Source: Colwellia sp.
Lineage (GTDB): Bacteria > Pseudomonadota > Gammaproteobacteria > Enterobacterales > Alteromonadaceae
Direction of reading: 5' to 3'
NCBI GenBank assembly: GCA_013215655.1
Contig: JABSOX010000051.1
Location: 1-42,048 of the forward strand
DNA: 42,048 bases
Of this stretch, positions 4,133 through 37,970 are shown piece by piece. A program made the position numbers and the translations under genes. Each line of letters starts with the position of its first letter. Within the stretch, counting starts at the first letter, position 1. Below the pieces are notes generated by a model. That model was not told the origin of the DNA, made no database searches, and was given only the letters and a program-made list of their open reading frames with translations.

Positions 4133-5713
4133 TTAAATGACGGAAAAGAAAAAACTTGGTTTCTCTAAATCTATAGGGAGTGAAACTGTAAATGTAGCTC
4201 CTTTATTCAACTCACTTTTAACGGTGATCATACCCTTCATTAATTCGACAAAACGTTGTGAAATTGCTAAACCCAGCCCTGTGCCACTGTATCTACGTGA
4301 ATGACTTGACTCAACTTGCCTAAATTCGTCAAAAATATAACTTTGTTGCTCTTTTGATAAGCCTATACCGGTATCTTGTATTTCAAAATATATGTGGGTA
4401 TCGTCATTACTGATGGATAAGGTTATCTGACCATTATTTGTAAATTTACAAGCATTGCTTAATAAGTTCAAAAGTAACTGTTCTAATTTTTCCTTATCAT
4501 TGGTGATTTGCGATAAAGTACAGTTTTGATTTATCTTAAAGGTGTTCTTATTTTTCTGTGCTAAGGGACCAATGGTATCAAGTAAGTTGATGACCAGCTC
4601 TTCAACTAAAATTTCACTTTGTACTATATTGAGCTTACCCGCCTCAATTTTTGCAAGATCGAGCAAATCATTAATCATGTTCAATAAGCGTTGTGAATTC
4701 TTAGATATTTTATCCATATCATCAATAAGTTCAAAATTACCTTCAAGCTCAAGCTCTTCAACAACCAGTTCACCATAACCAATAATAGACTGTATAGGGG
4801 TTCGTAATTCATGGCTCATATTTGCCATAAATTCAGACTTATGTTGACTTGCAACCAGCGCATTATCACGTGCTTGTACCAGCTCTTTAGTACGAATATC
4901 TACTTCAGCTTCAAGCTGATCTCTATGGGTAATTAAATCGTATTCTTGTTGTTTTAATACGGTCATCATGTTGTTGTAAGCGCTAGCAATATCGTGGATT
5001 TCTTTTGCACCACTTACTTTGGCTAGTAAGTGTTCTCCTGTATTTCGAGATTGTTGCATGATATTAGCGATCATACCTAGTGGTCTAAATAACCTTAATA
5101 GACCATAACGAAGAATAATGCTAAGAATACTAACGGATAATATACCAACAATAGCAATAAGTGTTGCGACCTGTGTTTGAGCTTCTCTTAGCTTGTCTTT
5201 ACTGTAAATAACCTCGGCGTAACCAATAATTTTTTCATCGATATTTTCAACATCAAGTTCAAATTCGTCTTCTTCACTGGGAGTTGATTGTGGAGATTCT
5301 TTTATTGGTGTTTTGATCAACCAATAATCACTTGTTTCTTTGATGACTTGCGTAGTTTCTATTTCTAACTTGTTAATTATTATGTCGGTAGGGTAATTAC
5401 CCATAACAAGAAAGCTATGATGATTGTCTAATAATAATTGAGCTGCAACAACAGACTGAAAACCTTGTACTTGATTCATTGCTTCTTGTGCATTTTGCTC
5501 TGAGCCAGATAAAATTGAAAATACCGCCTGTTTTGCTAGGACTTCGGTGATCTGGTAAGCATTCTTTAACATCAGTTGTTGAGATTGTAAATTCACCCCT
5601 ATAGCGGTGACAACACTAATGATAATGGTCATTAATGTAATGCCAATGATCATAAAGTGAATGACTTGATTTTTGATGCTTTTATTTGAGTTTTGTAGAA
5701 AGTTAATAGACAT
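4133..5713 (-). CDS. membrane sensor histidine kinase (HAMP-HisKA-HATPase)
   Basis: 526 residues. TM1 is at about 17-40, a periplasmic sensor region at about 41-180 (containing an acidic SEEDEFELDVENIDE patch) and TM2 at about 182-205. HAMP and a coiled coil reach about 290, HisKA has phospho-acceptor His301 in MSHELRTP, and the ATPase domain has an N box (LLSNACKF, about 417-424), G1 DTGIG (447-451) and G2 GTGLGLAI (477-484). There is no receiver or Hpt domain, so the partner regulator must be encoded elsewhere; none is adjacent. The gene starts 14 bases after the ABC_sub_bind-type gene on the same strand, which makes that periplasmic protein its most likely sensory partner. This pairing is inference from position. 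Confidence 0.92.
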   Translation of the reverse strand: MSINFLQNSNKSIKNQVIHFMIIGITLMTIIISVVTAIGVNLQSQQLMLKNAYQITEVLAKQAVFSILSGSEQNAQEAMNQVQGFQSVVAAQLLLDNHHSFLVMGNYPTDIIINKLEIETTQVIKETSDYWLIKTPIKESPQSTPSEEDEFELDVENIDEKIIGYAEVIYSKDKLREAQTQVATLIAIVGILSVSILSIILRYGLLRLFRPLGMIANIMQQSRNTGEHLLAKVSGAKEIHDIASAYNNMMTVLKQQEYDLITHRDQLEAEVDIRTKELVQARDNALVASQHKSEFMANMSHELRTPIQSIIGYGELVVEELELEGNFELIDDMDKISKNSQRLLNMINDLLDLAKIEAGKLNIVQSEILVEELVINLLDTIGPLAQKNKNTFKINQNCTLSQITNDKEKLEQLLLNLLSNACKFTNNGQITLSISNDDTHIYFEIQDTGIGLSKEQQSYIFDEFRQVESSHSRRYSGTGLGLAISQRFVELMKGMITVKSELNKGATFTVSLPIDLEKPSFFFSVI

Positions 5714-5727
5714 AATTAATGGTGTTA

Positions 5728-6675
5728 TTAATTTGGGAAGGTAAGCGCAAACCCTGAACGCTCATTTGAATTATAATCAAAGCCTAAATGTGCGGCTGTT
5801 CTTAAGTTAACCGCTAATTTAATTTTTTCTAAAGTTTTAACGGTTGATGGTCTCGATTTATAGTCTACGTTATTAATAAGTCGTGCAAGTTGTTGCCCTA
5901 AAATTTCATTGTCAGGCAGAGCTGAAAATAGGGCGCCACGTTTTGCATGAGTGGGTTTACTGGAAAATACCACCATTTTATTTTCCCATGCTTTTTCTAA
6001 AATGGTTGGCACAATAATTTTCTCATTTGCGGTGATGGGATCAAGTGGTAACCAGATAGCCATTTTTTCTAAATTAGAACCTTCAAATATATTGTTATAT
6101 GCAATTACCGCTGATTTTATATCATTAACGGCGATATGATTTAACATTAAGCCTTTTGCTTTTGCTTTAGCTTGTGCTTCCTCAATTATCCATTCAGACG
6201 CTGGACTGTATAGCACCGTTATCGTTGTTACTTCAGGCGCCAACTCATGTAGAGAGTCAAAGAGAATATTGGGATCTGCCATTAAACTTACCCCCGAAAT
6301 ACCATTAGGTTTTATTGGTAATGCACCAACAACAACGGGTTGTTCATTATAGAGTTGCTTAGCTATGCGCATACCACGTTTACCTAATGCGATAACTTTA
6401 TTTGTTAATATTTTATTGGCTTGCTTTTTTGCATCAAATTTTCGCGGTAGTTGTATATGATGAACTTTGCCATTAAATTCACTTTGAATTCCGTGAGTAA
6501 TTTGCTGAAAAATTTTATCGTACGGGGCTTTTACTTCTGGATATACCACGGTTAATTCTTCGGCAAATGCACTAATGCAAAAACTTAATAGTGGAATAAT
6601 GCATAATATATAGAAATGGTTTAATTTCACTTCACATCTTTTAATTGTATTAATTATTAGTTTTATAATATTCAT
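5728..6675 (-). CDS. ABC_sub_bind-type periplasmic binding protein
   Basis: 315 residues resembling the ABC_sub_bind family (PF04392, type-1 periplasmic fold): a KKANKIL...VIALGKRGMRIAKQL segment and GVSLMADPNILFDSLHELAPEVTTITVLYSP match that family's layout. A signal peptide ends near FAEE. The first ATG is at 6675 but has no convincing ribosome site; a GTG at 6630 begins a more standard signal peptide (VKLNHFYILCIIPLLSFC) and is a good alternative start. No ABC permease or ATPase is adjacent. Instead the gene heads an operon with a histidine kinase 14 bases downstream, so a role as a periplasmic ligand sensor is more likely than transport. The ligand is unknown. Confidence 0.82.
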   Translation of the reverse strand: MNIIKLIINTIKRCEVKLNHFYILCIIPLLSFCISAFAEELTVVYPEVKAPYDKIFQQITHGIQSEFNGKVHHIQLPRKFDAKKQANKILTNKVIALGKRGMRIAKQLYNEQPVVVGALPIKPNGISGVSLMADPNILFDSLHELAPEVTTITVLYSPASEWIIEEAQAKAKAKGLMLNHIAVNDIKSAVIAYNNIFEGSNLEKMAIWLPLDPITANEKIIVPTILEKAWENKMVVFSSKPTHAKRGALFSALPDNEILGQQLARLINNVDYKSRPSTVKTLEKIKLAVNLRTAAHLGFDYNSNERSGFALTFPN

Positions 6676-32777: not shown

Positions 32778-34547
32778 CTAAAAAGTATTAAATATCGTTG
32801 CGCGATTACGGCCTTGTTCTTTTGATTTATACATAGCGGTATCAGCATCGGCAAGTAGCTGCTCTAACTGATAACCTGAATTTACTACGTCGGTAATGCC
32901 AAAACTAGCTGAAATACTATATTGCTGCCCTGAGTCAATACTGTTTATTTCAGTTAATACTCGTCGATATTGCTCTACTACAATAACCGAAGAGGGCAAA
33001 TCACAATTTGGTAAAATAATACAAAACTCTTCACCGCCAATGCGGGCAAATATATCTTCTTGACGGATAACCGTTTTAATAGTTTTTACCACTTCTTTTA
33101 ATGCCCAATCGCCACAGGCATGGCCGTAACTGTCGTTTATTGATTTAAAATAATCTAAGTCAAACATCACTAAACACAAATCTTGCTGGGTATTTTTTGC
33201 ATAGGCAAGGGCGGTTTTACCTAAGTGGGTAAAATGGCCACGATTATAAATACCGGTGAGTGGGTCAAACTCAGACAAGGCTTTTAATTGTTTTTGGGTA
33301 TGGTACGAACGGAAGCCAAAAAAGGCGAGAAGCACAACTATAATGCTTAATAAACTCATAAATAAGCGGTTATTGGCAAGTTCTGTTTTACTGAGTTGGC
33401 GTTCAATGGTTAATAATTTATTTTGTTTGTCTAATAGCTTTATTTGGTTTTGTTGTTCTAATGACTTGTGTTGCGCTATTTGAAAGGCAAGCTCTTTAGC
33501 GCTGCTTTCATCGGTAAACGCTTTTTCTGTGGCTAGGTATAGTTTGTGGTAGTTTAAAGCTTGAATGTAATCTTTGTTTTGCTCGGCTATTTTAAACAAT
33601 GATAGATAAGCTTGTGAAACAGGCTCGCTGGTTTCTAAGCCTTTACTGTTTTTGATTACTTTTAGGGCAAAGTATTGCGCTTTTTTCAATTTATTTTGTA
33701 ATAAATACGCTTTTGATAAATTGACATAGAATTCAATTGATAATCTAGGATAACTCGCAGAATCAACTTCAAGAAGGTGATTTGATAAAAGATCAATTGC
33801 CTGATTTGGTTGATTGCGTTTGTTGTATAAATGAGCTAAATCGGAACGAATAAAATTGGCCATTACTGGTTCATTTGCAATATGGCAAATGCTAATCCCT
33901 TTATCGACCTCAGAAGTAGAATCTTTTAGAGTATTGAGCTTTAATTTTGACCTCAAGGACAACATGTTTACCATGCAATAAGTACGTTTATCCAAATCGT
34001 TAATATCTAATAATTGAGTATAGAAAACACTACGTTCATATTGTCCAAATTGGTAGTAGATAACCGCGGCGACCGTTACCCCCATTGCATAAAGTTTATA
34101 ATCATCGACAGTTTGAAGAGAAGGGATTAATTTGGAAAGTGCAATCATGCCACCGTTCCAATTTTTTGATATTGCCAGCGTATTTACTAAAGATAGATTA
34201 GCTCTAAATTTAATCTGTTTATTAGCATTTGAGCTTAATATTTCCTTATATATGGTTACAGCTTCATCTAGTTTTCCGCTGAATGTCGCTAAATAACCAT
34301 TGAGGTATTTTAGATAGTGTTTCTGTGACAATGATAATTGTATTTGTTGTTTATTTAGTTGTCCGATTATTTTATTGAATTGATGAGGGTTGCTAGATCT
34401 AATTTCATCTGCACTTGTCAAAATAGTATCAAAACTATCCACTTCTTTAGCAAATAGACTTGTTGGAAAAACTGAAAACAGAGCAAACAGCACAAATATG
34501 TATTGGTATTTAGAATGCCTATTTGCTCTTAAGAAATAGCAGTACAT
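32778..34547 (-). CDS. periplasmic-TPR, membrane-anchored GGDEF diguanylate cyclase
   Basis: 589 residues. A signal peptide/first helix is at about 17-34, then a TPR-rich periplasmic domain (about 40-350), a coiled coil (about 355-395), a membrane helix at about 398-418 (LFMSLLSIIVVLLAFFGF), and a cytoplasmic GGDEF domain. The active loop GGEEF is at 504-508 and the I-site RQED at 495-498 is intact, so it should make c-di-GMP with product inhibition. Its ATG is two bases after the stop codon of the second borosin precursor, with no clear ribosome site of its own, suggesting translational coupling. The TPR domain probably senses a periplasmic peptide or protein; the ligand is unknown. Confidence 0.93.
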   Translation of the reverse strand: MYCYFLRANRHSKYQYIFVLFALFSVFPTSLFAKEVDSFDTILTSADEIRSSNPHQFNKIIGQLNKQQIQLSLSQKHYLKYLNGYLATFSGKLDEAVTIYKEILSSNANKQIKFRANLSLVNTLAISKNWNGGMIALSKLIPSLQTVDDYKLYAMGVTVAAVIYYQFGQYERSVFYTQLLDINDLDKRTYCMVNMLSLRSKLKLNTLKDSTSEVDKGISICHIANEPVMANFIRSDLAHLYNKRNQPNQAIDLLSNHLLEVDSASYPRLSIEFYVNLSKAYLLQNKLKKAQYFALKVIKNSKGLETSEPVSQAYLSLFKIAEQNKDYIQALNYHKLYLATEKAFTDESSAKELAFQIAQHKSLEQQNQIKLLDKQNKLLTIERQLSKTELANNRLFMSLLSIIVVLLAFFGFRSYHTQKQLKALSEFDPLTGIYNRGHFTHLGKTALAYAKNTQQDLCLVMFDLDYFKSINDSYGHACGDWALKEVVKTIKTVIRQEDIFARIGGEEFCIILPNCDLPSSVIVVEQYRRVLTEINSIDSGQQYSISASFGITDVVNSGYQLEQLLADADTAMYKSKEQGRNRATIFNTF

Positions 34548-34549
34548 GT

Positions 34550-34813
34550 TTAAAAGTTTATTATTGCTTTTATTTCTTCTTTTTCTTCTGAATCATCTTC
34601 AGACGGTTCATCATTGTCAGGCGCAACCACGATACAAACAATATCGGGACAAATATCCAATGAACGTTCAAGGGAAGTAACGTCTTTGTTAATGAGTACT
34701 TCAGTAAGTTCGTTGTCTAGCTCTGCACTAGTTACGTGGGACTCAATATTTTCTGGTGTTTGTAAGTTAGCATCTTGACCAAGTTGTTCTAATACTTGCA
34801 TTATTTTTGACAT
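34550..34813 (-). CDS. SonA-like split-borosin precursor peptide, copy 2
   Basis: 87 residues. The ATG at 34813 is chosen because GGAG lies 6 bases upstream; the frame continues open to 34858. Residues 1-50 resemble the helical borosin-binding domain of SonA (LEQLGQDANL near 8-17; VLINKDVTSLERSL near 39-52). The candidate core is CPDIVCIVVAP at 55-65, a short hydrophobic stretch with two cysteines. A very acidic tail follows (NDEPSEDDSEEKEE) and the end is IKAIINF. In the family, the partner methyltransferase adds methyl groups to backbone amides in the core. It is the paralogue of the next-upstream gene and ends two bases before the TPR-GGDEF start. Confidence 0.85.
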   Translation of the reverse strand: MSKIMQVLEQLGQDANLQTPENIESHVTSAELDNELTEVLINKDVTSLERSLDICPDIVCIVVAPDNDEPSEDDSEEKEEIKAIINF

Positions 34814-34873
34814 AGTATGCTCCGTTGGTTTTAGATTAACGCTTGTTTTTATTTTCACTTTTTACATTGTTTT

Positions 34874-34900
34874 GTCGAGCTTCGCTGCGCTCAGGTCGAC
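34874..34900 (-). repeat. leader hairpin of precursor copy 2
   Basis: GTCGAGCTTCGCTGCGCTCAGGTCGAC written as GTCGA...TCGAC: a 27-base imperfect palindrome 61 bases upstream of the precursor ATG. It differs at two positions from the copy before precursor 1. It may be a processing or attenuation hairpin, or a dispersed REP-like repeat. Confidence 0.65.
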
Positions 34901-34961
34901 CTACAAATGAATTTAGCCATGCAATTGAAAATTAGCATGGCTAATATTCTTTGCTGCGGAC

Positions 34962-35213
34962 TTAGCCGTTGCTGACTGCTTTTGTTTCATTCTGCTTAAT
35001 CTCAAATTCGTCATCTTCGGGGGTAGCGATGATACAGACAATATCAGGGCAGACATCTAATGAGCGTTCCAGTGAACTAACATCTTTATTAACTAGTGCT
35101 GTAGTAAGTTCTTTCTCTAGCTCAATAATTGTTAAATAGTTTTCAATACTTTCTTGTGATTGTAAATTGGCATCTTGACCGAGTTGTTCTAATACTTGCA
35201 TTATTTTTGACAT
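34962..35213 (-). CDS. SonA-like split-borosin precursor peptide, copy 1
   Basis: 83 residues, ATG with GGAG 6 bases upstream. Residues 1-18 are identical to copy 2, and LVNKDVSSLERSLDVCPDIVC matches it closely, while 19-37 diverge. LEQLGQDANL corresponds to the TQLGQDAQL segment I recall in SonA of Shewanella oneidensis. The candidate core is CPDIVCIIATP at 55-65, followed by an acidic tail EDDEFEIKQNETKAVSNG. There is no signal peptide, and no protease or exporter gene is adjacent. It lies 122 bp after the SonM-like gene on the same strand. The methylated residues cannot be read from sequence. Confidence 0.87.
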   Translation of the reverse strand: MSKIMQVLEQLGQDANLQSQESIENYLTIIELEKELTTALVNKDVSSLERSLDVCPDIVCIIATPEDDEFEIKQNETKAVSNG

Positions 35214-35272
35214 AGTATGCTCCGTTTGTTTTAGATTAACGTTTGGTTTTCTTTTTCTTGTTACATTCTTTT

Positions 35273-35299
35273 GTCGAGCATCGCTGCGCTCTGGTCGAC
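35273..35299 (-). repeat. leader hairpin of precursor copy 1
   Basis: Imperfect palindrome with GTCGA...TCGAC ends, centred on GCATCGCTGCGCTCT, between the methyltransferase stop and precursor 1 start. It is part of the duplicated unit that also carries the leader and ribosome site of both precursor genes. Confidence 0.65.
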
Positions 35300-35335
35300 C
35301 TACATTAGTAACATATCTTTATTAGCAAAGCACCA

Positions 35336-36157
35336 CTAACATACGACGGTTAATTTAGGGCCTTTTTTTATTCTATCTTGTTGTCGGTCTATTTCTGCTA
35401 AACGGTCGAGTACTTGCTGATTGGGCTGCATTTTTTCACACGGTGGTATCACCATGGTGGTATGCATAAAAATTTCTGCATCAATAAAGTCGCGCAATTT
35501 AATAGTATCGGCGCGCATGGTATCTATCGGTAATACTTTTGCTTGATATAATATAACTGGATGATCTAAGGGGTAAATTTTACTTAATAATTCCACCAAG
35601 ACTTGCCGATAGGCTCTGCCGGTGGCGTATTTGGTTAATGATTTATCACCCGCTAGGCCTACTTGCCAGAGAATTAAATGAGCAGCAGGGTCAATATTGC
35701 GTTTAAAAAACATAAACTGGCTGGCTTCAAAGTGCTGACAGCCGGTTTGTCCGGGATCAATGCATAAATCAGCAAAGAGACAATCTTCGGCAGAGATACC
35801 GGGTTCCATATGCGCGGGAAGTTCTTCTTGATGTGCTTTTTTTATAGCGCGATGGGCAACACAAGCAAATACGCCGGGGTGACCATAAAAAGCGGCAACC
35901 ACTTTTTTACCTAAACGTGTTTCCACTAAAATGGCTTCAACCATTTGATTGTAAGTAATATTGCGGTTTTTACCTTCTTGGTAATAAGGCTGTAAGCTGC
36001 GAACATCGGTCGCCATTTCTTCGACCCAACGTTCAACCAGTCCACTCGACATCAAGGAGAATACGACATCGGCTTGTTCGATATGGCTGCGACATATCGG
36101 GCTGATATGTGCACCTAAGGTCATGCCGGTACCGACACAAACTAAACTTCCTGACAT
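35336..36157 (-). CDS. SonM-like split borosin peptide backbone alpha-N-methyltransferase
   Basis: 273 residues, tetrapyrrole-methylase fold. SLVCVGTG (4-11) and YGHPGVFACVAH (91-102) form the SAM site, and PYYQEGKNRNITYNQM carries Tyr58/59, Arg65 and Tyr69, matching the catalytic Tyr-Arg-Tyr set known in OphMA and SonM. HMEPGISAEDCLFADLCIDPG, HFEASQFMFF and YPLDHPVILYQA also closely match SonM. It should transfer methyl groups from SAM to backbone amides of the partner precursors. Unlike fungal OphMA it carries no fused precursor, but its C-terminus is an odd KKGPKLTVVC tail. The ATG has AAGGA about 11 bases upstream. The two precursor genes follow on the same strand. Confidence 0.93.
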   Translation of the reverse strand: MSGSLVCVGTGMTLGAHISPICRSHIEQADVVFSLMSSGLVERWVEEMATDVRSLQPYYQEGKNRNITYNQMVEAILVETRLGKKVVAAFYGHPGVFACVAHRAIKKAHQEELPAHMEPGISAEDCLFADLCIDPGQTGCQHFEASQFMFFKRNIDPAAHLILWQVGLAGDKSLTKYATGRAYRQVLVELLSKIYPLDHPVILYQAKVLPIDTMRADTIKLRDFIDAEIFMHTTMVIPPCEKMQPNQQVLDRLAEIDRQQDRIKKGPKLTVVC

Positions 36158-36402: not shown

Positions 36403-37053
36403 TTATTTAATGTTTGCTTCTTCTACTGGTGCAGCTACTTTTTCTATAAGGTTTTTACGCCAGTGATTTTGATTAACATACTGATATTCAATCAATGGGT
36501 CTAGCGGTTGATTGTTCATATCTAAAGTACAGCCAAGCTTTTTTAAAAAACGTTTAGTGACGCTATGCGTTTGGTAATAAAACAAGTGAATGGTGGCAAT
36601 TGCTAAATGTTTATAAGCGAATTCCATTAGTGCCCCCATTGCTTCTTCTGCGTAGCCTTTACCCTGCGCGGTTTCTGTTAACATAATACCCACTTCGGGC
36701 TGATCGCCGGTTTGAAAGAGTGGATCGGTTTTGGCTTGTGGCCATTTTCGCCATGACAGTGCTTGAAAGCCAATTTTTTTGCCGGTAGCTTTTACTGTTA
36801 TCGACCACCCTATAATTCTAGGTACATCCTTTTTCATGCTTCTTAACATAATGTCAAAGGAATGTTCGGCTTTTTCTGGTGTTAATGCCGGCGAAATATG
36901 AAGCATGATCTGTTTATTGGTATATAGACTACAAATTAACTGCTTATCTTCTTCGACTAACGGCGATATGATAAAGCGCTTGGTACTAAAGGCACTGATA
37001 TTGTTTTTTATTATTGTTGCTGGCGGTAAAACTTGCTGCTTTGCTTTAGACAT
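36403..37053 (-). CDS. GNAT-family acetyltransferase (RimJ/RimL type)
   Basis: 216 residues from the ATG at 37053, chosen because GTGGA lies about 9-13 bases upstream and it starts two bases after the radical SAM stop; an ATG at 37074 would give 223 residues and overlap that gene. The N-terminal strand FIISPLVEEDKQLICSLYTN, EVGIMLTETAQGKGYAEEAMGALMEFAY (motif A, Q-G-K-G-Y-A) and SVTKRFLKKLGC are of the RimJ/RimL type, which acetylates protein N-termini or small amines. It forms a tight pair with the radical SAM gene and lies 245 bp upstream of the SonM-like gene. A link with the peptide pathway is possible but unproven. Confidence 0.88.
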   Translation of the reverse strand: MSKAKQQVLPPATIIKNNISAFSTKRFIISPLVEEDKQLICSLYTNKQIMLHISPALTPEKAEHSFDIMLRSMKKDVPRIIGWSITVKATGKKIGFQALSWRKWPQAKTDPLFQTGDQPEVGIMLTETAQGKGYAEEAMGALMEFAYKHLAIATIHLFYYQTHSVTKRFLKKLGCTLDMNNQPLDPLIEYQYVNQNHWRKNLIEKVAAPVEEANIK

Positions 37054-37055
37054 TT

Positions 37056-37970
37056 CTATAATCCACGTTGCCATTCTTGACGAAGAGGGATGACCCCGGG
37101 TTGTTGTAGCGCCATTTGTACTTGCGAGAGTAATATTTGTTTATCTTTACCTAAAGTGCCCTTTAAGACGAGATAATTAGAGGCATGATCAGAGCGAAAT
37201 ACTGTTTTTGTAAGCTCCAAATTTGAAAGTAGCACCTCCATTTCAGTAAATAATTCGTGTTGTTCTAATTGGCGAAACGGCTGGCGAGTACGACCATCAA
37301 ACTCTTTTGCAAACTGCTCAGCAAAGCGTTGTTCACCCATCGGGAAACTAACCACTAAGGTCGATAAAAAATTAGGCTGAGTCTCATTCATTAATTTTGC
37401 TGAATTAAGCGCATGCTGCTTTGATAATTCGGGGCCGCCTAAACCGTTGAGAATCATTACTGAGCTTTTCATGCCTGCTTGTTTAATTTTATTTAAGGCC
37501 ACCACTGAGCTCTGATAGGTTTCGCCTTTATTGATAAGGGCAAGTACTTCATCGTCGCCACTTTCACAACCTACATACACTAGCTTTAACCCTAATACTT
37601 GTAATTCAGCTAATTGTTCAACGGTTTTATTAGTCAGATTTCGTGGTAAACAGTAACTTGAAACACGGGTAACTTGTGGCAAATGTAATTGGATAAGCTC
37701 TAGTATTTCTTTAAGGCGTTTAAAGGGTAACATCATCGCATCGCCATCAGCTAAAAAGACTCTTCCTGTCGGTAGACCTGATTGGGCAATGGTGACTATT
37801 TCTTTTTCGATATCAGCAATTTTTTTAGGACGAAACTTTTTATTTTCATCGGTATACATGTCGCAAAAGCTACATTTGTTCCAAGAGCAGCCATTGGTGA
37901 TTTGCAGAATAAGGCTTTTCCATTCACTGGGCGGGCGAAAAACGGGTTCGATATAATTAAGTGGGTACAT
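37056..37970 (-). CDS. radical SAM protein (Elp3/HemN-like core)
   Basis: 304 residues. Cluster cysteines are 28, 33 and 36 in NGCSWNKCSFCDMY: spacing CX4CX2C rather than the common CX3CX2C. FLADGDAMMLP, VYVGCESGDDEVLALINKGET and MILNGLGGPE are typical of Elp3/COG1032-type radical SAM enzymes that bind SAM at a [4Fe-4S] cluster. There is no SPASM tail with extra cysteines and no recognition domain for RiPP precursors, so I do not claim a maturase role. It ends two bases before the GNAT start, so the two are co-transcribed. The substrate is unknown. Confidence 0.88.
   Translation of the reverse strand: MYPLNYIEPVFRPPSEWKSLILQITNGCSWNKCSFCDMYTDENKKFRPKKIADIEKEIVTIAQSGLPTGRVFLADGDAMMLPFKRLKEILELIQLHLPQVTRVSSYCLPRNLTNKTVEQLAELQVLGLKLVYVGCESGDDEVLALINKGETYQSSVVALNKIKQAGMKSSVMILNGLGGPELSKQHALNSAKLMNETQPNFLSTLVVSFPMGEQRFAEQFAKEFDGRTRQPFRQLEQHELFTEMEVLLSNLELTKTVFRSDHASNYLVLKGTLGKDKQILLSQVQMALQQPGVIPLRQEWQRGL

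Follow-up and report, generated by a model that had tools for sequence, protein, structure and literature searches.

A split borosin locus of Colwellia sp. beside a TPR-GGDEF sensor gene, and its peptide as a candidate signal

What is the peptide product of a split borosin for, and what might read it? Type IV split borosins are already known (PMC8429565), and the accessible portion of that report assigns them neither a final product nor a function. The question is raised here by a locus of Colwellia sp. at positions 34550-36157 of a stretch of 42,048 nucleotides (contig JABSOX010000051.1; the whole stretch is hereafter the window), for which an initial annotation had described a SonM-like backbone N-methyltransferase with two SonA-like precursors. 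The most informative neighbour, a gene at 32778-34547 for a protein with tetratricopeptide repeats (TPR) and a GGDEF domain, went unmentioned there. On the minus strand the transcription order is enzyme (36157-35336), precursor A (35213-34962), precursor B (34813-34550) and the 589-residue sensor (34547-32778). We read the locus as a split borosin operon whose peptide product would be a signal read by the adjoining sensor, and put the probability of this reading as a whole at about 0.5. The methylated peptide is taken as the putative ligand of the TPR sensor because the genes are almost constantly adjacent, the TPR part is kept under changing outputs, and a single enzyme can have several precursor-sensor pairs.

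Enzyme, precursors and candidate cores

The borosin genes and the putative cores that they encode are as follows.

35336-36157, minus strand: SonM-like backbone N-methyltransferase, 273 residues (phmmer to SonM E=2e-79; Tyr59/Arg65/Tyr69; Pfam TP_methylase)
34962-35213, minus strand: precursor A, 83 residues (its family profile finds SonA at E=1.3e-6; five-helix model)
34550-34813, minus strand: precursor B, 87 residues (64-65% identical to precursor A)
35010-35051, minus strand: candidate core of precursor A, residues 55-68 (CPDIVCI at 55-61, after the helical domain; approximate limits)
34610-34651, minus strand: candidate core of precursor B, residues 55-68 (CPDIVCI at 55-61; approximate limits)

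In the phmmer search the next matches after SonM of Shewanella oneidensis were borosin enzymes from fungi, dbOphM and OphMA among them, with E values of about 1e-44 to 1e-43. Cobalamin and siroheme methylases, which the initial annotation had named as the homologues that would speak against its proposal, were not the closest. The motifs YGHPGVF and GISAEDCLFADL are present as it had given them, and the catalytic Tyr/Arg/Tyr set that it had picked out aligns with SonM: Tyr59, Arg65, Tyr69 and also Tyr91 correspond to SonM Tyr58, Arg67, Tyr71 and Tyr93, the residues mutated by Miller et al. (PMC8429565). The Pfam and NCBIfam matches do name the tetrapyrrole methylase superfamily, as they would for a cobalamin- or siroheme-type enzyme that happens to lie beside two unrelated small genes. 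However, the best NCBIfam matches to cobalamin-type and related methylases scored 13.5-42.9 bits, far below cut-offs of 163-525, and this explanation is at odds with the order of homologues and with the SonA-like precursors that adjoin the enzyme. We give it practically no credence.

Enzyme and precursors are encoded by separate genes, as a split borosin requires. The system is almost certainly a SonM/SonA-type split borosin (type IV), given that sequence and catalytic residues, the precursor profile, the predicted fold and the order of the genes all agree. It has in common with SonM/SonA (PMC8429565) the catalytic residues, the separate precursor, the five-helix N-terminal domain and the short core, and differs in its two tandem precursors, a longer acidic tail and the cysteines in its core.

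The two precursors lie within a 249-nt repeat of 80% identity. For precursor B the listing of open reading frames (ORFs) has a GTG start at 34858, and the ATG at 34813 yields the start MSKIMQVLEQLGQDANL as in precursor A. Both carry the LEQLGQDANL and CPDIVCI stretches for which they had originally been singled out. Single precursor sequences gave no convincing family match in Pfam or NCBIfam and no SonA in the PDB. A profile grown on six-frame segments near related enzymes gathered 124 sequences, including the short SonA-like one of locus L038, and a 60-sequence precursor profile found SonA in the PDB at the E value given above. The AlphaFold2 model of the precursor (mean predicted local distance difference test score, pLDDT, 73) has helices at 3-13, 15-18, 20-30, 34-41 and 45-51; the SonA binding domain consists of five helices in residues 1-53 (PMC8429565). 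Foldseek with this model returned SonA chains as 6 of 21 matches, with template modelling scores by target of 0.62-0.72 and root-mean-square deviations of 2.2-2.8, all matches having E >1 and the top-ranked one not being SonA. Judged by profile and predicted fold, the helical domain is related to the SonA borosin binding domain.

We place the core in the stretch past residue 54, with limits that are estimates. The precursor-SonA profile alignment stops at SonA residue 64; if it is extended to cover SonA Leu63/Ile65, the putative methylation sites would lie at about residues 62 and 64, with an uncertainty of one or two positions. In an alignment of 60 precursors (the window's two and 58 of 88 non-redundant ones) a cysteine occupies the Cys60 column in 35 and the Cys55 column in 8, and a proline the Thr64 column in 47. 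The locus had been called a distinctive member for its two precursors and two conserved core cysteines. The two precursors are there, yet several per enzyme are not rare (two or three in 18 of 111 loci, a few organisms counted twice and the window and its genome's second locus included), and the first cysteine is not family-wide.

Precursor cores vary widely across the family. The precursor at 4648-4857 of L176 has many repeats of a DAAIIKGYA-like motif behind the helical domain, which suggests several cores in one precursor. The hydrophobic core stretch is doubled in tandem in L058 (5944-6207), L060 (5947-6210) and L072 (6024-6287). Rhodanobacteraceae precursors (L086, L087, L092, L103 and L114) keep the helical domain and have a polar GHEDDE-like stretch in place of the hydrophobic core, with enzyme and sensor present.

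Enzyme, precursor and sensor genes are coupled across relatives

The enzyme's relatives were retrieved by enzyme similarity alone, and the best 80 of 124 (L045-L124) were inspected; they come from Alteromonadales and Xanthomonadales-type organisms, many sharing genera. Sensors were counted on stop-to-stop segments because the filtered ORF list had lost some genes in GC-rich loci. In 78 of these 80 loci a TPR sensor starts downstream of the enzyme and on its strand, at a distance of at most 2.6 kb; the other two are cut short by the end of the sequence, 1 nt past the enzyme in L101 and 127 nt past it in L124. The sensor carries an in-frame GGDEF domain in 73 of the 78, the remaining five running off the contig. 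A precursor was found in 76 of the 80 loci, and in all 76 one directly precedes a sensor, a pairing of peptide and receptor genes that extends across species.

This arrangement extends to further enzyme loci. All 20 that were chosen for spread (L125-L144) have a TPR sensor near the enzyme, upstream of it in L132 and L141, as do 14 of another 17 (L161-L164 and L167-L179, of which L162 and L163 are probably identical to L071 and L107). In L183 the precursor-sensor pair adjoins the enzyme on the opposite strand. A TPR-GGDEF gene also follows the precursor in L127, a close relative of SonM/SonA (E=1e-138 and 7e-26 to the PDB chains); the accessible portion of the SonM/SonA report (PMC8429565) does not mention a GGDEF gene.

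Co-occurrence was assessed in 394 genomes of the order, with few candidates scored per genome and the sensor sought by single-sequence search (E up to 1e-5). The enzyme was found in 95 genomes, the sensor in 80 and both in 73 (Fisher 7e-51; this value and that for the protease below were computed ignoring phylogeny), and at 108 of 128 sensor places there is an enzyme on the same strand no more than 5 kb away. Of TPR sensors the Colwellia genome itself has only two, against 68 GGDEF matches, and each of its two borosin loci has one of them. The second locus (L044, 4725-8733 on contig C23) has a GNAT gene, an enzyme 56% identical to that of the window and a TPR-GGDEF gene; its two precursors have diverged, and the second of them lacks an acidic tail.

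Sensor architecture, changing outputs and pairing

The sensor gene begins just past precursor B, and the following parts were assigned to its product.

32778-34547, minus strand: TPR-sensor diguanylate cyclase, 589 residues (begins 2 nt past the end of precursor B; adjacency kept in relatives)
33369-34448, minus strand: TPR-like sensor domain, residues 34-393, predicted periplasmic (alignment of 55 relatives and model; topology by hydropathy only)
33312-33368, minus strand: predicted membrane helix, residues 394-412 (hydropathy)
32802-33272, minus strand: GGDEF domain with GGEEF (504-508) and RxxD (495-498) (Pfam, motifs)

Hydropathy gave two hydrophobic segments, a signal-like one at 15-33 and that at 394-412, from which a periplasmic TPR domain is tentatively predicted. 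The GGDEF domain matched Pfam at E=5e-45 (153.6 bits against a cut-off of 23.8) and has its active-site motifs intact, and among 55 aligned relatives the GGEEF residues are invariant, as are Cys191 and Cys221. The TPR match of the window sensor stayed under the Pfam cut-off (17.3 bits against 25); that of the L044 homologue exceeded it (32.4 against 30.1). The predicted structure (mean pLDDT 92) consists of stacked helix pairs, one long helix at 327-426 and then the GGDEF fold. Foldseek with the whole model had GGDEF structures among the matches listed and was uninformative on the ligand of the TPR part.

The RRNPP peptide receptors of Gram-positive bacteria (Rap, PlcR and PrgX) are cytoplasmic and read unmethylated peptides. 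They are likened to the present sensor by description and as a working idea only, namely that a domain of helical repeats recognises a ribosomal peptide whose gene lies beside its own; in contrast to them, the window sensor is predicted to span the membrane. The TPR-GGDEF cyclase RcbB of Vibrio (PMC12282931) is likewise built so that TPRs at the N-terminus control a GGDEF domain at the C-terminus, again a likeness of description and not of sequence. Its known partner is the TPR protein RcbA, their complex having been studied at the cell pole, and the available text of that report makes no mention of a borosin or methyltransferase.

More distant relatives keep the TPR part and change the output. 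A hybrid histidine kinase takes the place of the GGDEF domain in L136, L142, L171, L172 and L174, and a histidine kinase in L135, L143, L175 and L179; in L138, L140, L177 and L178 the TPR protein has no output domain. These loci were selected as unusual or unmatched and give no frequency. A small gene precedes the sensor in 10 of 11 inspected and also in L179. Most of these small genes resemble precursors only in their size, location and start; the profile recovers those of L143, L177 and L178. In L138 and L140 the precursor lies before the enzyme. In L135 a tandem pair of methyltransferase genes (4989-6630) stands ahead of the TPR-histidine kinase gene.

The four loci in which a TPR protein without an output domain follows the enzyme would also suit a TPR protein that works with the peptide as an immunity protein, a chaperone or an export factor, its cyclic di-GMP (c-di-GMP) output being secondary. 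Such a role fits poorly with the in-frame GGDEF domain of every full-length sensor in L045-L124 and with the invariance of the GGDEF catalytic residues, and we regard it as quite improbable.

Three loci (L046, L047 and L049) have two precursor-sensor pairs with a single enzyme. When partners were exchanged inside the same locus, the native arrangement was the best of eight, with a correlation of 0.428 (next 0.387, lowest -0.087), an outcome that chance would give one time in eight. For 97 adjacent pairs from 92 loci, the partial correlation between precursor and sensor distances, given enzyme distance, was 0.24, and 0 of 300 permutations reached as high a value. Split by precursor region, it came to 0.31 (core) and 0.16 (binding domain); when pairs were grouped by enzyme distance, the binding domain was ahead in both nearer classes, the core in both of the more distant ones.

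Gene adjacency alone would suit a pathway regulator equally well. The borosin product could then have another role, for instance as an antibiotic or in metal binding, while the TPR-GGDEF protein senses something else and regulates only production or release; the wide variation of the precursor cores would be in keeping with this. A TPR part that is kept while the output changes is nevertheless better suited to a peptide sensor than to a general regulator, and so are repeated precursor-sensor pairs under one enzyme. We consider this other role unlikely, if still a serious contender.

Release, route and meaning of the peptide

The proposal that the methylated peptide is a signal can be laid out as a series of steps. 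By homology, the SonM-like enzyme would methylate backbone amides in the hydrophobic core of both precursors while gripping their helical N-terminal domain. A protease would free the methylated C-terminal part, in many relatives a pepsin-like enzyme and here a different one, and a GNAT acetyltransferase might cap the released peptide. The peptide would then get to the periplasm, a speculative step in which its methylated backbone might help. There it would bind the periplasmic TPR domain and so alter c-di-GMP synthesis by the GGDEF domain.

Candidate genes for the accessory steps were found near many of the enzymes. A pepsin-like protease matching Pfam Asp lies on the enzyme's strand in 13 of the 80 loci L045-L124. 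Among the 394 genomes it is present in 38, all of which have the enzyme (Fisher 4e-27), and in 23 genomes it lies no more than 3 kb upstream of the enzyme on the same strand. The bacterial pepsins shewasin A and shewasin D (PMC2761423, PMC4814920) are proteases of the same family A1 as that found upstream of the enzyme in many relatives, and shewasin D is mainly cytoplasmic (PMC4814920). At 441 residues the protease of L045, which matches Pfam Asp, is as long as CPS_0549 of Colwellia psychrerythraea (PMC2761423), a likeness in length and family. GNAT genes, recognised by one profile, stand on the enzyme's strand in 35 of the 80 loci. The window has one of these, along with two repeats:

36403-37074, minus strand: GNAT acetyltransferase, a possible accessory enzyme (Pfam PF13302; same profile at other loci)
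34874-34904, no strand: palindromic repeat resembling a repetitive extragenic palindrome (REP), between precursors A and B (repeat analysis; short matches elsewhere in the genome)
35273-35303, no strand: REP-like palindromic repeat, between the enzyme and precursor A (repeat analysis)

One REP-like copy thus stands ahead of each precursor gene, and the REP-like stretch accounts for 24 of 26 genome matches, all short (40 of 98 candidates scored). A radical SAM gene at 37056-37970 overlaps the GNAT gene; it was set aside as a cluster member, since none of the other 81 loci gave a relative of it in a scan of the filtered ORF list, from which some genes of GC-rich loci had been lost.

Several observations weigh against the peptide as a signal. 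Of the proposed steps, passage to the periplasm is the weakest. The precursors have no signal peptide, and no exporter was identified among the genes looked at. The Colwellia genome of the window gave no pepsin-like protease with the same query that matched 38 genomes, and therefore another protease would be required there, or there is no cleavage. The same findings would be expected if the precursor stayed uncut and the full-length methylated protein were a cytoplasmic partner of the enzyme or the cyclase. However, the conserved part of the sensor is its predicted periplasmic TPR domain and not its cytoplasmic output, and pepsin-like proteases co-occur with the enzyme; an uncut precursor is, in our view, decidedly improbable.

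The coupling also has exceptions. L059 and L062 have a sensor and no precursor by profile, L161, L170 and L176 an enzyme and no TPR sensor by profile, and L161, from another part of the phylum, neither precursor nor sensor. Single-sequence search placed a sensor within 5 kb of 97 of 144 enzyme places (one 55-residue fragment, G393:C187, omitted); of 18 unmatched loci that were retrieved, 16 have a sensor by profile, L170 and L176 being the two that do not. Seven stand-alone TPR-GGDEF genes (L165, L166, L180, L181, L182, L184 and L185) have no recognisable precursor upstream, and two of the seven are in genomes without the enzyme; that of L180 resembles the window sensor (E=2.7e-80). The statistics on precursor-sensor pairing are modest, and they give a mixed picture across the distance classes.

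Beyond type IV, borosin types V to X exist (PMC11285071, PMC11395268). The legend to Figure 1 of PMC11395268 lists 'GGDEF, GGDEF-sequence-containing domain' among borosin architectures, and a link between GGDEF and borosins has therefore been noticed before in some form. Among the titles and abstracts searched, a body of literature that leaves most subscription papers outside, none presented a borosin as the ligand of a TPR sensor.

For the family, the reading of the methylated peptide as a signal would mean that split borosins of Gammaproteobacteria are a class of ribosomal peptide signals with N-methylated backbones, released by pepsins in many species and read by dedicated TPR receptors that span the membrane and have swapped outputs, several pairs sharing one methyltransferase; we advance this wider statement tentatively, as somewhat less probable than the reading of the locus itself. 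The available portions of the reports on bacterial pepsins (PMC2761423, PMC4814920) give them no gene partner. The order of enzyme, precursor and TPR sensor, together with a pepsin confined to enzyme-bearing genomes in the 394-genome sample, links the question of what borosins do to that of what bacterial pepsins act with, and makes both testable.
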